This document shows, one piece after another, positions 21,864-28,652 of a stretch of DNA of 34,749 nt (the first letter of the stretch is position 1; each line of letters starts with the position of its first letter). Source of the stretch: a virus; the IMG/VR virus record IMGVR_UViG_3300019776_000263, positions 1 to 34,749 of that record; one strand, 5' to 3'. Position numbers and translations under genes: made by a program. The notes below the pieces were generated by a model. The model ran no database searches. It was given only the letters and a program-made list of their open reading frames with translations, and was not told the origin of the DNA.

Positions 21864-22130
21864 TTATTTTCGAGAGATAGCCCGATATACCGTCATATGT
21901 GAAACTCCGCATTCCCGCATCACCTCTTGTATATTGTTGCCGGTAAACATGCGTTTTATTTTCTGCGTTCTGCTCTGATGTGATTTTTTTTGTATATAAA
22001 CTTGTTCGCCTTCATATTCATGGCGAATCTGTTCTTCAATTTTTATAGCCAGATCTTCCGTGATCGTTGGCTGCATTTCCCTTACGCGCTCTAAAATTCT
22101 ACTTAGAATATCTCGGCGTTCTATATTCAT
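21864..22130 (-). CDS. Mor/C-like transcription regulator
   Basis: An 88-residue protein. The N-terminal helical part (ITEDLAIKIEEQIRHEYEGEQVYIQKK) matches the Mor dimerisation domain with its strand YIQKK. The C-terminal part (RTQKIKRMFTGNNIQEVMRECGVSHMTVYRAISRK) is the Mor helix-turn-helix. Mu Mor activates middle transcription. Here it is translated from an ATGA overlap with the terminase gene, inside the late operon, and may activate head-tail genes through the 47-bp elements. The target is inference. Confidence 0.75.
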   Translation of the reverse strand: MNIERRDILSRILERVREMQPTITEDLAIKIEEQIRHEYEGEQVYIQKKSHQSRTQKIKRMFTGNNIQEVMRECGVSHMTVYRAISRK

Positions 22131-24271
22131 CGATCTCTCCTATTCAAAATTCTGCTGGTAATGTCATTCCTTGATATTGCCGCTGGTGGCGGGTTGATTA
22201 TTTTTGTCTGTGGTTTTGGCGCGGATTGCGCTGGAATTGATGCATATTTACTTAAATCAACTGCACATAGCCGCATGGCCGCGAATGAATATACTTTGCA
22301 GTCAATCGCTTCATTGCGCGCACGGGTTTTTACCCACATTGAGAATGGGCGAGTACCTTTAATTTTAGTTACCAGTTTTTCTGCCGTGAGTTGTGCAAAG
22401 TATTCATCATCAAACGCAGAGTCTTGAGGAAAATGTATATAGCCAGGGCCGGGTTTTTGATTCTTAAGCCGTGAATAAACAAGCGCCTTACCTTGATCAA
22501 CCCCAAGTGGCTCTACATGTACGCCGCGCTTGCGCTTGATGCGCATGCGCGATTTGCGTTTGCGCTCATCTTCAATCAGTGGCCGTCCAGCTCCTTCAAA
22601 GCCTTTCACTGCCACGCACCATTTGCGTTTTTCGCAAAATGCATACACCATGCTAGTGTTGTAACCGGAGTCAATCGCAGCTAACCGAATGCCGGCATCC
22701 GTCAAAATAATATGCAGGTCGTCCCAAACTTCCTGCTGTACTGTGTCGCCTGGAATAATAATGTGATCCAGCGTCCAGTTTTCTTCATCTTTACCCCAGC
22801 CATCTATCGTGACTTCTAGCCGGTCTTTCTGCACGTCAACGCCCGCCGTTTTAAATGCAATCTGTGGATTCTCGTAGACTTCAAGCCGCATGATCAACGC
22901 GGCCGGATCTTGTTCCTCACCCTCTTCTTTAAATACTTCGCCAAGGTAGGTATTGATAAAGGCTTTAAGCTCACTGGTATCGTGCTGACAGCTTAACCAC
23001 TTTTCAGCGATAGATTTCCAGCCCAAACCCAAACCGATGGGTGCATATAGCGCATTCAGGTGATAGCCGCGCGTTGTTTTAATGCTGGGTCTTTCCGCAA
23101 TCCAGCGGCCTTGCGTCAGCATGTTGGTTTTGTGGCCTTCATCGATGTAAACACCGCAGTGCTCGCAAAGATACTGGCAGGATTCAACTACGGCGGGCTC
23201 GTCCTCTTTTGGCAGTGTCATTTTCCACTTCAGGCCGTAGGGCTTATCCTTGCCGCCAAATTTAAGCACCTGAAATTCACCGCAGTGCGGACATGGCACG
23301 TGATAACGGCGCATATCGCTGCGCTTGTACAATATTTCAATCCGTGATGCTTGGTCATTGGTCGGGGTGCTGACAAAGTAAGACTTTGCCCGGCTGAATG
23401 TTCGCTGGCGGTTTTCAATCAGTGTCATTGGATCACCCTCACCGCCTACATCCCACGGAAAAGCATCTACTTCGTCACAAATTACATACGGCAAGTGATC
23501 AGAACGCAGGCTGTCTGGTGAGTTAGCACCAGCCTTGATAATGCGCGAGCGTGCGCCATATTCCATCAGGTCACCGCGATTGGTTTTACTGCGGCTCGCA
23601 TGGCTGACTAACTCAGATAATGCTTCAGTTTCATCCAGCATTTTAGCCAGGCGCGGATTAAATGAACGGTCGCGCAACTCAAGTGTAGGCACTACCACCA
23701 GCAGATCCTTGTTTTGCAAATGATGCATGACATAACCCAGCCAGTTATACATGGCCTCGGTACCGCCCACGCCTGAAGATTTGATAAATACTGTGCTGCG
23801 TACCGGACTGTGCTCGCTCAAGCTATCCATAATTTCACGCAGGTATGGAGTCAAAGCTGTGTTCCAGCGCCCTGGCGAATTGGTACCGGATTGTAGCCAG
23901 CGGTTGCGATCGGCCCACTGTGAAACAGTCAATAGATCACGCGGCTTTGCACCTCGTTTAAAATATTCAGCGAAAGCTGGTAAAGGTAAGTTTTCAGCTT
24001 CAACCTGATTGCTGAGTTCGCGCATTAAATCAAGCATGCAATCGCTCATCAGATAATGCACGCGCGTTTCATTGTATTCGCCATCGATGGCGCTGATTAA
24101 TCGCGACTCCATACGATTAACCAGATTTAACATGAGTGCGCGGGTTTTTAGTGCGGAGCTGATCACTATTTCAAACGTGCAGCTTTCGTTTAATGCTTTT
24201 TCATATTCCTTGTTGGCAATTTCAGCATTCAGGCGCGCTTCTTCTGTTTTTAGATCCGCCATATTCAGCAT
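22127..24271 (-). CDS. terminase large subunit, lambda gpA family
   Basis: A 714-residue packaging motor. From about residue 96 it follows GpA: FKRGAKPRDLLTVSQWADRNRWL, Walker A-like KSSGVGGTE (164-172), Walker B ICDEVD (264-269), a Cys-rich zinc motif (CPHC...CQYLCEHC, about 325-375), and nuclease acidic motifs in GVDVQKDRLEV, AIDSGYNTS and NEAIDCKVYS. Before this there are about 95 extra residues resembling the C-terminal helices of the adjacent small subunit. Start 24271 follows AAAGG at a rather long spacing. Confidence 0.93.
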   Translation of the reverse strand: MLNMADLKTEEARLNAEIANKEYEKALNESCTFEIVISSALKTRALMLNLVNRMESRLISAIDGEYNETRVHYLMSDCMLDLMRELSNQVEAENLPLPAFAEYFKRGAKPRDLLTVSQWADRNRWLQSGTNSPGRWNTALTPYLREIMDSLSEHSPVRSTVFIKSSGVGGTEAMYNWLGYVMHHLQNKDLLVVVPTLELRDRSFNPRLAKMLDETEALSELVSHASRSKTNRGDLMEYGARSRIIKAGANSPDSLRSDHLPYVICDEVDAFPWDVGGEGDPMTLIENRQRTFSRAKSYFVSTPTNDQASRIEILYKRSDMRRYHVPCPHCGEFQVLKFGGKDKPYGLKWKMTLPKEDEPAVVESCQYLCEHCGVYIDEGHKTNMLTQGRWIAERPSIKTTRGYHLNALYAPIGLGLGWKSIAEKWLSCQHDTSELKAFINTYLGEVFKEEGEEQDPAALIMRLEVYENPQIAFKTAGVDVQKDRLEVTIDGWGKDEENWTLDHIIIPGDTVQQEVWDDLHIILTDAGIRLAAIDSGYNTSMVYAFCEKRKWCVAVKGFEGAGRPLIEDERKRKSRMRIKRKRGVHVEPLGVDQGKALVYSRLKNQKPGPGYIHFPQDSAFDDEYFAQLTAEKLVTKIKGTRPFSMWVKTRARNEAIDCKVYSFAAMRLCAVDLSKYASIPAQSAPKPQTKIINPPPAAISRNDITSRILNRRDR

Positions 24272-24272
24272 G

Positions 24273-24827
24273 TTATTGGTTGCCTTTCTTTAATCGACGC
24301 ATGGCACGTGGAAACTCAGCTTTTATTACCGTTCTCAATACCTTTAATTCATCCTGCAGCAGCTGCTTACGCATATTTGCATCAGTCATCACGCTTAAGC
24401 GCGGGGCTGTCTGATCAATCAGGCGTTCTACCGTAGCGCGTAGTGTATTGCCAAGCGCCAAAGCTTCGCGGCGCACGTCACCGATGATGAAACGCTTGCC
24501 CAATGCCAGGTCAAAATTTAATTCTTTCGATTTATTTTTGAGCGCCTGAGTCTCACGCTCATAATGCTGGCGGCTACCATCAACAACTTCAGCGGCTTTG
24601 CGTTTTTTACGTGCTGGCTTTGTGCTTTTACGTGCGGCCTCATGCCTTGCTGCCACCACTGGATTTGCGCCGCTGGCAGTTTGTTCAATTTTTGCCAGCG
24701 ACGCTTCGACTTGAACAAGCTTTTCATCTTTGGTCAGCACAATGCGGCCATGCTTAATCAGCTCGGTGACGTAGCTTGGTGCGCGGTTGATGCGCTTTGC
24801 AAATTGGCTTTTACGTTCCGTGGTCAT
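24273..24827 (-). CDS. terminase small subunit (Nu1/DUF1441-like)
   Basis: A 184-residue protein. The N-terminus is a winged-helix DNA-binding domain (SQFAKRINRAPSYVTELIKHGRIVLT). A basic linker (ARKSTKPARKKRKAAE) and a helical oligomerisation/TerL-binding part (RREALALGNTLRATVERLIDQTAPRLSVM) follow. It would recognise the packaging site and recruit the large subunit. The ATG overlaps the preceding stop (TAATG) and its stop lies one base before the large subunit start. Confidence 0.85.
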   Translation of the reverse strand: MTTERKSQFAKRINRAPSYVTELIKHGRIVLTKDEKLVQVEASLAKIEQTASGANPVVAARHEAARKSTKPARKKRKAAEVVDGSRQHYERETQALKNKSKELNFDLALGKRFIIGDVRREALALGNTLRATVERLIDQTAPRLSVMTDANMRKQLLQDELKVLRTVIKAEFPRAMRRLKKGNQ

Positions 24828-25203: not shown

Positions 25204-25446
25204 TTATCGTTTGCCTAATTCAATTTTTAATAATCCTGCAATCACACCTTCAGCTGGTACCTCTTTCCCCAACTTTCCGAGTGCCAGGTAATCAGCGCCG
25301 CTAATTTCTAATCTAGCTTTAGGTGACTCTTTCCAGTTCCTGCTTCCACCAACCTGTCCTGTTTCATTGTTAGTCGCTTTAAATTCAACCAAGCCAAAAG
25401 CTTCTTTAAATTCCCCTACTACTTCACTAATACTCTTTTCTTTCAT
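25204..25446 (-). CDS. hypothetical 80-residue phage protein
   Basis: The ORF MKEKSISEVVGEFKEAFGLVEFKATNNETGQVGGSRNWKES is soluble and mixed alpha/beta. It ends ADYLALGKLGKEVPAEGVIAGLLKIELGKR. Its ATG overlaps the end of the repeat-rich ORF upstream. No family was recognised. Confidence 0.5.
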   Translation of the reverse strand: MKEKSISEVVGEFKEAFGLVEFKATNNETGQVGGSRNWKESPKARLEISGADYLALGKLGKEVPAEGVIAGLLKIELGKR

Positions 25447-25730
25447 GATAAATAAGTGTTGTGATGGGGTGTGATGGGGTCATGTGTACCCCGTAACATC
25501 CGCAAGCCGCATGTATAAAGGCGTGTGACGGGTGTGACGGGTGTGACGGGGTGTTTTCCGTGTGCGTGATAAATATATTTATTTAATAGAGTATTTAATA
25601 AATAATAATCCTCACGTGTACGCGCATGCACAAAACCCCGTAACACCAGTAACAAGCCAATAAAAATGCGGTGTTTGCCCGTAACATACCCCATCACATA
25701 CCCCGTCACACCCGTCACATTAATTGTCAT
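25443..25730 (-). CDS. doubtful ORF over iteron region
   Basis: A 95-residue frame overlapping the primase stop by 11 bases and the next ATG by 4 bases, so it is well placed for translation. However, its sequence (VTGVTGYVMGYVTG, VTPVTPVTR) is just a translation of the 9- and 12-bp iterons. The iteron spacing is a multiple of three, which keeps the frame open. It may be non-coding DNA, or a gene carrying the origin within it. Confidence 0.25.
   Translation of the reverse strand: MTINVTGVTGYVMGYVTGKHRIFIGLLLVLRGFVHARTREDYYLLNTLLNKYIYHAHGKHPVTPVTPVTRLYTCGLRMLRGTHDPITPHHNTYLS
25460..25719. repeat. iteron array flanking an AT-rich core; candidate replication origin
   Basis: Left side: TGTGATGGGG twice (25460-25479), an inverted TACCCCGTAACA (25487-25498), and three tandem TGTGACGGG (25524-25550). 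Right side, inverted: AACCCCGTAACA (25634-25645), a degenerate copy (25646-25654), GCCCGTAACA (25677-25686), TACCCCATCACA, TACCCCGTCACA and CCCGTCACA (25687-25719). The core 25568-25610 is almost pure A/T. This is origin-like and abuts the primase-helicase. A terminase-binding (cos/pac) role is the alternative. Confidence 0.7.
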
Positions 25731-28053
25731 TTCGTGGCCTTAATGCTTCTTTGAAGTCCAAAACGCAAGTTGTAACCCATTGCGATTCAGTTAAGTCAGC
25801 CGTTTTTATTTGCTTTTCTGTGTAAAATTCAGCAGGCGGGAAGATCACAGCACGCTGTTTTACTTCGCCAGTGAAGTGATAATCAGAATAAATACGCGGT
25901 TTACTACGAGACCAGCCGTTAGTTTTAACAATATTTCCGATGATCTGATTTAATTCACGCGGCCTGATTACGCCGTTTCGCTTGGACCAATCCGTATAAG
26001 CCTTGTATAAGTCCTCACTCAGGCACGGACAAACTGGCAGATCCAACTCATTCAGTATCCATTCCTGCAAAAAGCGCTCACCAGATTCAAGATTGATATC
26101 AATCAGGTCTTGTTTTGATTTTGTCATCGGCGGCTTGGTGTGCTCGTTGAAATCACCAAGCGGCAGCTGCAGCAGATAATCATGCAAAGCCTCGATGCCA
26201 CCCTCTTTGACTTCTTCAGCTACATCAGAGTAATAGTTTGGATGCAGTTTTTCGGGGGTCCAGATTACTGCAAAGCGCCGGTCGTCTTTTTCCAGCACTA
26301 GAGGCTGTTTCTCATTGGATAAGAAAACGATATTCACATGGTTTTTTTCATCATGTGCTGCCACGTTTTTTGGATTGATGCGGATCGTGTCGCCAGTGAT
26401 CAGCGCTTTGATTTTGTTTTTTATGTGGAACAGTTCCTGCCTGGCAACAACCTCATCGGCAATCATGAATAATTTACCGCTGGCCCAATCATTGAACTTG
26501 TCATCGATCTCAGCCTGACCAACAATGCGTGAATATTTACCGAACAGCTGAGCATAAGCTTCAAAGAATAAGTTTTTACCTGCCCCTTGCGGTCCGTGAA
26601 ATATCAGAGCCGTGCGCATTTTTGCGCCCTTGTTTTGAATTGGATAAGCCAGCCATTTTAAAACCCACTGGTATATATCGTTATTGCCGGACTCTTCACC
26701 GCTACATAAGTGCTCAAGCAGGCTTAGTAATATGCCGCACTGTCCTTTTTTAGGCTCAGTAGGCCAACCACCCCACAAATTGCAAAGAATATGCTTATCG
26801 TTTTCAGTAGGATCAAAACCAACTTCAGACAAACGTACCACTTTGCGCATTGGATGCAGCTTCCATTCACGCCAGGCGTGATCAACACATATATCCAATA
26901 CGTCAGATTTAGGTATCAGGCTGGATTCCTGATGATCGTACATCGTGCCACCGGCACCATAAATCAAACTGTAACGCTCTACCGCTTCAGTAACATCCAG
27001 TAATGGTTTTAATGTGCTGCGAGCATCACTTACCCCACCCCCCCGCTGTATCGCGCCCGCGCGCGGGGCGCTTAAAACCCAACCAAGCTGGTTAAGCTTG
27101 TCTGTGATTTGCACCGCAATGGTGCTTTCTGAGCAGTTAGGAAAGTTTACGAGGTCGTTAAAGTCTGTGAGCTTCTTACCTTCACGGTCAAATGGAAACT
27201 CTGGTTTAATCCATGCACCGCCAACTGCAAGCGCAGCTGACTCAGCGGCCTTGCATCCGGGATTACCTTCAGATAGGTAATCATCATCAGCACAAATCAG
27301 AATGCGCGCACGCGGATATTCTTTATGCAGCGCACTGGCGACTTCAATCAGATTACCTGCATCAAAGGCAACTGCAACGGGTAGATCTGTTGCCTGATAG
27401 ATGCTGGCACCAGTGGCGTAACCTTCTGCAATTAAAATAATGGGTGTAAGTGAAGTAACACTGCCGCACAAATGAAAGTGCGCTTTTTTGTTTAAGCCTT
27501 TTGGCCAATATTCTTTCTCAAGTTTGTTGCCACGGTCCTTCCCGCGTATGATCTGCAATCCCCAAATCTTGCCTTTAGTATCTTTCATCGGGATTGCTAC
27601 CGTACCGTTACCGGATGGCGCGAATCGAAGTCCGTGCGCCCTGACAACCTTGCGGGTTAAATAACTGCTCTCACCTTCTTGCACATATTTATACCAGGCA
27701 ACAGTTGCCATGTGAGAAGCTTTTGCAGCATCCTGTTCGCGCTGTAACTTGGCTCTTTTCTGTGCATCCGCATGCTGTTTTTTTACAGCTTCCAGTTGCT
27801 CTTTACTCAACTTAACATCGGTACCCGGTGCAATCTTTTCAATAAAAGCATCACCGCCAAACCAGTACCCAAAAGAACCAATCAGTGCATGGCGACCATC
27901 ATCCAGGGTGATCTCATGAACGATATACCAGCCCTTTTGCTTATGGCCATCACGCTTAATGCGACGCATCACGCCAACATCAAGTCCACTGAGTACAAAA
28001 TCATGACTGATCAGCGTGTTTAATACATCATCGTAATTGATCCAGGTACTCAT
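25720..28053 (-). CDS. Toprim primase fused to SF3/D5-type helicase
   Basis: A 777-residue replication protein. Residues about 1-200 hold a DUF927/CHC2-like N-terminal region. The Toprim domain shows catalytic Glu210 in LIAEGYATG and the Asp triplet 256-258 in CADDDY. The C-terminal half is a DUF5906/D5-like helicase: Walker A GPQGAGKN at 487-494, MIADEVVA as Walker B and VFLSNE as the motif C/sensor Asn. It would prime and unwind phage DNA, probably at the adjacent iterons. It overlaps gpZ by ATGA. Confidence 0.9.
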   Translation of the reverse strand: MSTWINYDDVLNTLISHDFVLSGLDVGVMRRIKRDGHKQKGWYIVHEITLDDGRHALIGSFGYWFGGDAFIEKIAPGTDVKLSKEQLEAVKKQHADAQKRAKLQREQDAAKASHMATVAWYKYVQEGESSYLTRKVVRAHGLRFAPSGNGTVAIPMKDTKGKIWGLQIIRGKDRGNKLEKEYWPKGLNKKAHFHLCGSVTSLTPIILIAEGYATGASIYQATDLPVAVAFDAGNLIEVASALHKEYPRARILICADDDYLSEGNPGCKAAESAALAVGGAWIKPEFPFDREGKKLTDFNDLVNFPNCSESTIAVQITDKLNQLGWVLSAPRAGAIQRGGGVSDARSTLKPLLDVTEAVERYSLIYGAGGTMYDHQESSLIPKSDVLDICVDHAWREWKLHPMRKVVRLSEVGFDPTENDKHILCNLWGGWPTEPKKGQCGILLSLLEHLCSGEESGNNDIYQWVLKWLAYPIQNKGAKMRTALIFHGPQGAGKNLFFEAYAQLFGKYSRIVGQAEIDDKFNDWASGKLFMIADEVVARQELFHIKNKIKALITGDTIRINPKNVAAHDEKNHVNIVFLSNEKQPLVLEKDDRRFAVIWTPEKLHPNYYSDVAEEVKEGGIEALHDYLLQLPLGDFNEHTKPPMTKSKQDLIDINLESGERFLQEWILNELDLPVCPCLSEDLYKAYTDWSKRNGVIRPRELNQIIGNIVKTNGWSRSKPRIYSDYHFTGEVKQRAVIFPPAEFYTEKQIKTADLTESQWVTTCVLDFKEALRPRNDN

Positions 28054-28652
28054 TTGAATGTACCCAGTAGAGCTGCTTTGATTGCACGTTCAAATTCAAC
28101 CGACATTTCTGCATTGATGCGCGCAATTACTTTTTTATTAATGCGGCGCGTATTGAACATTTGAGGAACATCGATGGTTGTAAGTGCTTTAATTGGCAAA
28201 CGGTCTTTTCCGGTGCGTGCAAAGACCGTGCGGCCTTGGTTTCCAATGAATGCACCTTTAATGGTTTTCTTACCTGCCCCGCGTTTAATCTGGAATCTTA
28301 GATCCTGCTTTGTTCCAGCTTTAGCACGGCGACGACCTTCAGCCAGGCTGACTTTATTTTCTGTAAAGCGGATAAGGTTCAGACCGCGCCCCTTTTTATT
28401 TTTTGCGAACGGGTCAAGCTTTGCATACCACTTGCTAAAGTCACGCTGTGCGCGAATCACTCTTAAATTCGAGCGCACCTCGTTTGATTTAATATTAAAT
28501 TCTGATGTGATCTCGCGAACCATCGTAGTATTTGCTTTCGCAATTACTTTATTCAATGCAGCTGGCACTATTTTCTGCTGCAGAGTATTGTTTAATTTAT
28601 CCAGGCTTTTCTGCACATCTTTAAAATTCGTTTTTATATTGATGATAGCCAT
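28050..28652 (-). CDS. minor tail protein Z-like
   Basis: A 200-residue basic protein. The opening (INIKTNFKDVQKSLDKLNNTLQQKIVPAALNKVIAKANTTMVREI) and the tail (FERAIKAALLG) follow the pattern of lambda gpZ (Minor_tail_Z), a tail completion protein. Unusually, it lies upstream of the primase in the early leftward operon, about 11 kb from the other tail genes. An alternative is a basic nucleoid-type protein with a gpZ-like fold. Confidence 0.72.
   Translation of the reverse strand: MAIINIKTNFKDVQKSLDKLNNTLQQKIVPAALNKVIAKANTTMVREITSEFNIKSNEVRSNLRVIRAQRDFSKWYAKLDPFAKNKKGRGLNLIRFTENKVSLAEGRRRAKAGTKQDLRFQIKRGAGKKTIKGAFIGNQGRTVFARTGKDRLPIKALTTIDVPQMFNTRRINKKVIARINAEMSVEFERAIKAALLGTFK

Follow-up and report, generated by a model that had tools for sequence, protein, structure and literature searches.

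The window analysed here is an IMG/VR record taken as a whole, with a length of 34,749 bp. It carries genes for an integrase, a CI-like repressor and a CII-like regulator, given which the phage is probably temperate. An array of short repeats, or iterons, lies between the gene of a primase-helicase, the presumed initiator, and a string of small ORFs that is followed by the genes of the small and large terminase subunits (Table 1). The array was thus correctly placed in the initial annotation, just downstream of the primase and upstream of the terminase, and the ORF that bears it is directly 3' of the primase gene. The 80-residue product of the next gene had no match in Pfam or PHROG. On the other side, a Minor_tail_Z/neck-protein gene is found directly upstream of the primase (positions 28050-28652, minus strand), which is an odd site for a morphogenesis gene. 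GC skew was also considered as a mark of the origin. Its sign changes near 29-30 kb, but this change is explained by the orientation of the genes and is uninformative; the window is also a fragment.

Table 1. Positions of the genes and sequence features in and around the iteron array.
Feature	Position	Strand	Remarks
Terminase large subunit	22127-24271		
Terminase small subunit (TerS)	24273-24827		
Next gene after the bridge ORF, 80 aa	25204-25446	-	Start and bridge ORF stop overlap; lacks an evident Shine-Dalgarno sequence
Bridge ORF, 95 codons	25443-25730	-	Begins 11 nt within the end of the primase gene; its stop and the next start share ATGA
Iteron half-array distal to the primase	25460-25550	+	Exact TGTKAYGGG; + copies at 25460, 25470, 25524, 25533 and 25542; reversed (-) copy at 25490
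Shorter alternating tract CGTGTGCGTG, other side of the A/T core	25559-25568	.	From the sequence
A/T core, candidate unwinding element	25570-25609	.	2 G/C in 40 bp (5% G+C)
Perfectly alternating purine-pyrimidine tract CACGTGTACGCGCATGCACA, 20 nt, beside the A/T core	25613-25632	.	
Iteron half-array next to the primase	25637-25719	-	Copies at 25637, 25646 (degenerate), 25678, 25690, 25702 and 25711
Candidate iteron-reading C-terminal domain, primase residues 679-777	25723-26019	-	Word-similarity link; AlphaFold model; probable winged helix
Primase-helicase, 777 aa, presumed initiator	25720-28053	-	Pfam Toprim_3 (3.5e-9) and DUF5906 (3.3e-21); PHROG 2249 DNA primase (1e-132)

Searching the 34,749-bp window for TGTKAYGGG returned 11 exact matches, all at positions 25460-25719, and none in the rest of this possibly incomplete record; simple base counting gives a chance expectation of about 1 for both strands of the whole window. 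A twelfth, degenerate copy, TGTTACTGG, is observed at 25646-25654. The count of at least eleven units proposed initially therefore holds, but the word that came with it, TGTKACGGG, was too strict: it fits 8 of the 11 exact copies, the remaining three being TGTGATGGG, whereas TGTKAYGGG fits all 11. As had been described, the copies form two opposing groups around a core made almost only of A and T, the copy at 25490 being the lone reversed one in its group. The right-hand spacings are the expected 12, 12 and 9 bp, and those on the left are 10, then 9 and 9, rather than 9 and 10. Neighbouring copies abut or are 3 bp apart, which is why searching for a pattern with the spacer fixed at 2 bp gave no match. 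The array matched no RNA family of Rfam at E 0.1, and a nucleotide search against isolate phages returned no match, as is expected if iteron words turn over. Our literature search, mostly of open-access articles, found no published description of this array.

Of the relatives found by primase scans, 25 were viral loci and two were bacterial contigs. A profile search gave 80, some of them on contigs already found; the annotated phages S1, Mcat3, pAN, H4907 and PG1 were added. In total, 94 loci were examined and 84 were left after near-identical primases had been removed. An array was scored when the commonest 8-mer occurred at least 4 times within a 470-bp stretch at the stop codon of the primase. 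Such an array was detected in 89 of the 94 loci, with the 8-mer present up to 13 times, versus 39 of 6257 other windows from the same loci. The layout varies little among the 84 loci: the copies of the left half, in the sense of the primase, lie at about 0, 9, 21, 33, 65 and 74 (steps of 9-12-12-32-9). After a gap with a median of 86 bp, the copies of the right half are spaced by 9, 9, about 42, 12 and 9-21. Plus copies prevail in the left half (463:51) and minus copies in the right half (417:50). Six copies is the mode in each half (46/84 and 49/84 loci), and exactly 6+6 copies are found in 33 loci. The words include TGTGACGGG, TGTGCAGGG, CGCTACGGG, AACCACGCCA, CAGCGAAC, TGTGCGGTATG, GATGGAACA and TATACCGGG; the copies agree within one phage and the word differs widely between phages. 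That the word turns over while the geometry is constant suggests a protein reader changing along with the word. In one of the relatives (L006:7208-7315), the primase frame is apparently broken near its 3' end and the array follows normally, which could reflect a sequencing error or a real frameshift.

The lowest 20-bp GC content in the gap between the half-arrays is 0.00 in the window and 0.4-0.6 in GC-rich relatives, whose centre is less A/T-rich. Most relatives display between the half-arrays a GC-rich and perfectly alternating purine-pyrimidine tract, of which the exact sequence varies and the alternation is kept. The longest alternating run has a mean length of 16.4 nt, versus 10.0 nt in dinucleotide shuffles and 6.1 nt in other windows, and a tract of at least 12 nt is present in 79% of the relatives, versus 30% of the shuffles and 1.1% of the other windows. 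Alternating purine-pyrimidine tracts are prone to form left-handed DNA under supercoiling, and those described here could play a role in melting or in supercoil sensing. The centre of the array also has a mild inverted-repeat potential and folds better than shuffles (mean z -1.4, versus -0.16 in controls). A reading of the array as a hairpin only was rejected, since pairing does not explain arrays of one repeated word.

We analyzed which part of the primase goes with the word, by relating the similarity of iteron words among the 84 loci to the identity of 60-residue windows of the primase, with the rest of the protein controlled. Only the windows covering residues 661-777 stand out (partial r 0.22, 0.27 and 0.34, and at most 0.10 elsewhere); the null maximum was 0.15 in 500 max-statistic permutations of the scan (p 0.002). 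A second and weaker peak, with a partial r of about 0.1, is seen at residues ~350-410, on the immediate N-terminal side of the helicase domain, and could be a clade effect or a second DNA contact. To illustrate the linkage, the primases of L103 and L104, which share about 90% of their residues outside the C-terminus, are about 75-98% identical per 40-residue window to roughly residue 640, then 60, 62, 35 and 22% identical, and their words are TATACCGGG and TGTGCAGGGT, respectively, with the central sequence TTACGTGACGCGCGAGAAA kept in both. Likewise, L012 resembles the window in TerS (75%), in the large subunit (80%) and in the primase N-terminus, whereas the C-terminal half of the primase and the word both differ. 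The primases of L012 and L041 are in fact mosaic, their N-terminal ~300 residues, together with the terminase, being window-like and their helicase and C-terminus not, which suggests recombination inside the primase gene. Some relatives have the word TGTGCAGGG in common despite C-terminal domains that are only ~25% identical, so that the linkage is statistical and not a one-to-one code. The best reading of these sequence comparisons is that the word would be exchanged in step with the primase C-terminal domain. The AlphaFold model of this domain (pLDDT 89, pTM 0.73) has the element order H-S-H-H-S-S, by which it is a probable winged helix. Its fold matches in the PDB are mostly winged-helix DNA binders (FOX, RFX5, PadR, ORC), none of them significant (best E 0.19). 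In exploratory column tests, the word-linked residues are near 679-681, 716-726 and 733-735, and map in the model to a helix start and a wing-like hairpin.

Terminase binding had been put forward as the alternative, and the repeats could be a packaging (cos/pac) site bound by a lambda-type terminase small subunit. Supporting this idea, the terminase is of the gpA type and a large-subunit gene comes after the array within a few kb in 47 of the 57 relatives with enough DNA. A joint test on 70 loci also left a weak residual correlation between the word and the TerS N-terminus (partial r 0.13, p 0.003). However, the primase C-terminus reached 0.33 in the same loci, and the specificity of the repeats does not follow TerS as in a lambda-type cos site. 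Indeed, L012 and L041 have a TerS 72-75% identical to that of the window, but another word and a primase C-terminus of ~30% identity. Moreover, H4907 keeps its array directly after the primase, with the terminase kilobases off, beyond antitermination and lysis genes. We thus regard a packaging site as quite unlikely. Another hypothesis is that the array, bound by the primase or by another protein, would be a regulatory, copy-control or partition site, that is an operator or a centromere. Plasmid iterons serve control as well as initiation, and P4 has a crr separate from its ori. Nevertheless, there is no ParA/ParB-like gene among the scanned proteins and no second array of the TGTKAYGGG word in the window, and repeats placed symmetrically about a melting core agree with initiation; this hypothesis also appears unlikely.

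One could also assume that the ORF across the array encodes a functional repeat peptide, the DNA repeats being a by-product. The frame is indeed open in 62 of the 84 loci, versus 19 for the opposite strand and an expectation of 32 when spacers are shuffled, and its start and stop are coupled: the ORF starts on the primase stop in 65/84 loci, mostly through ATGA, and 56 of these end on a following start codon. Where close relatives differ by indels, these come in multiples of three. However, a new word means an entirely different peptide, and not all loci use the same frame. Compared with three relatives, the substitutions in the ORF are even over the codon positions (10/11/7, 17/17/18 and 18/23/14), with no third-position excess, whereas such an excess is evident in the primase of the same relatives (23/8/147, 41/26/162 and 37/19/190). 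The protein encoded by the ORF is therefore not conserved, and a functional peptide is, to our mind, very unlikely. The initial annotation had opposed ORF and origin as alternatives and proposed a comparison between phages. Among the primase relatives, the repeats are indeed conserved and the protein sequence of the ORF is not, but the opposition was too simple, as the frame is also maintained without protein-level constraint. We propose that the frame is probably kept for translational coupling, or to keep ribosomes on the message through the origin. SD-like 4-mers precede 43% of the next genes in the relatives, versus 13% of random positions, so that a general absence of SD sequences gives no support to coupling, for which only the overlaps and the open frame speak.

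Altogether, we estimate at roughly 85% the probability that the array at 25460-25719 is the replication origin of the phage, read by the C-terminal domain of the primase-helicase. The candidate origin of the initial annotation is supported in that conservation favours the repeats over the ORF protein and the word follows this domain far more than TerS. On this basis, the winged-helix-like C-terminal domain would bind iterons of ~9 bp, and each half-array, which usually has six copies, would be the seat of a single helicase hexamer, so that two hexamers would face each other across the ~86-bp centre. The A/T core would melt, aided by the flanking alternating tracts; two helicases would then load and the Toprim domain would prime both strands. 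The array word and the C-terminal domain would evolve together, in such a way that each phage reads its own origin. This origin would lie inside an operon, threaded by an ORF with a maintained frame, and ribosomes would pass from the primase to the next gene.

A broader proposal, to which we give somewhat less than an even chance, is that of a widespread class of phage origins. In such a class, a fixed set of 6+6 iterons would seat a double hexamer of a self-reading primase-helicase and the word would be exchangeable with the C-terminal domain. Z-prone alternating tracts would flank the melting core, and a translated ORF, open only for coupling, would lead ribosomes through. What is new here is a 6+6 frame that is fixed while its words are exchangeable, the apparent exchange of the word in step with the C-terminal domain, the presence of alternating tracts, and a bridge ORF that is maintained without being conserved. 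To our knowledge, the way in which initiator helicases select an origin has been established only for a few mobile elements. This primase family offers dozens of natural initiator/word pairs at constant geometry, including the near-isogenic L103/L104 swap, which should make the recognition code of the C-terminal domain readable and testable by domain exchange. It also supplies a simple rule by which the origins of uncultured phages could be located. Many small genes that follow such primases and are annotated as hypothetical proteins are marked as probable origins, and may not be ordinary proteins.

Stenotrophomonas phage S1, whose primase is 42% identical, is a case in point. An array of the word TGTGCGGG lies directly downstream, inside gp2 (L028:2454-2804), followed by the terminase; the word is different, and gp2 is annotated as a hypothetical protein, the array not being recognised as an origin. 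For the helicase core, the best solved relative is PDB 6k9c/6k9e (E 2e-22 over residues 450-650), which we infer to be the helicase domain of the polymerase of Nitratiruptor phage NrS-1 (PMC7102993). This polymerase differs by its AEP-type prim-pol at the N-terminus and has no known link to iterons.

A likeness also exists with the rep/ori module of the staphylococcal pathogenicity islands (SaPI), and with the putative origin of SCCmec Cch2, where the gene of a D5-type initiator helicase is directly followed by multiple short iterons, as in the window and its relatives. As in the SaPI-type module, an A/T-rich segment separates two iteron groups in the window. SaPI Rep binds its downstream iterons with its C-terminal domain, and this binding has been proposed to involve two hexamers (PMC7581432); here the C-terminal domain of the primase is the putative reader. 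In contrast to SaPI, the helicase is here fused to a Toprim primase, the hosts appear proteobacterial, the layout is fixed, mostly 6+6, and lies within a coupled ORF, and the core has alternating tracts at its sides. The likeness to SaPI Rep is one of D5/DUF5906-type helicase class taken from the literature, and the element is a possible rather than an established SaPI relative. On the other hand, in P4 alpha a Toprim primase-helicase ends in a winged-helix domain that binds the origin (Yeo et al. 2002, as cited in PMC4234260). The primase of the window has the same length (777 aa) and also joins Toprim and helicase parts, its probable winged helix being the candidate origin-binding domain. 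The P4 crr lies directly 3' of alpha and has oppositely oriented repeats, some of them 9 bp apart, as here; however, it is 3' of a terminator, it is a duplicated 120-bp unit and its repeat word differs. Besides crr, P4 depends on a distant ori as a second, separate cis region, whereas all copies are here in one array. No second cis region sharing the repeat was found in this 34.7-kb and possibly incomplete window, and the element was therefore not filed as a P4-type system. The best reading of these analogies is that the element would work like SaPI rep/ori and P4 alpha/crr.
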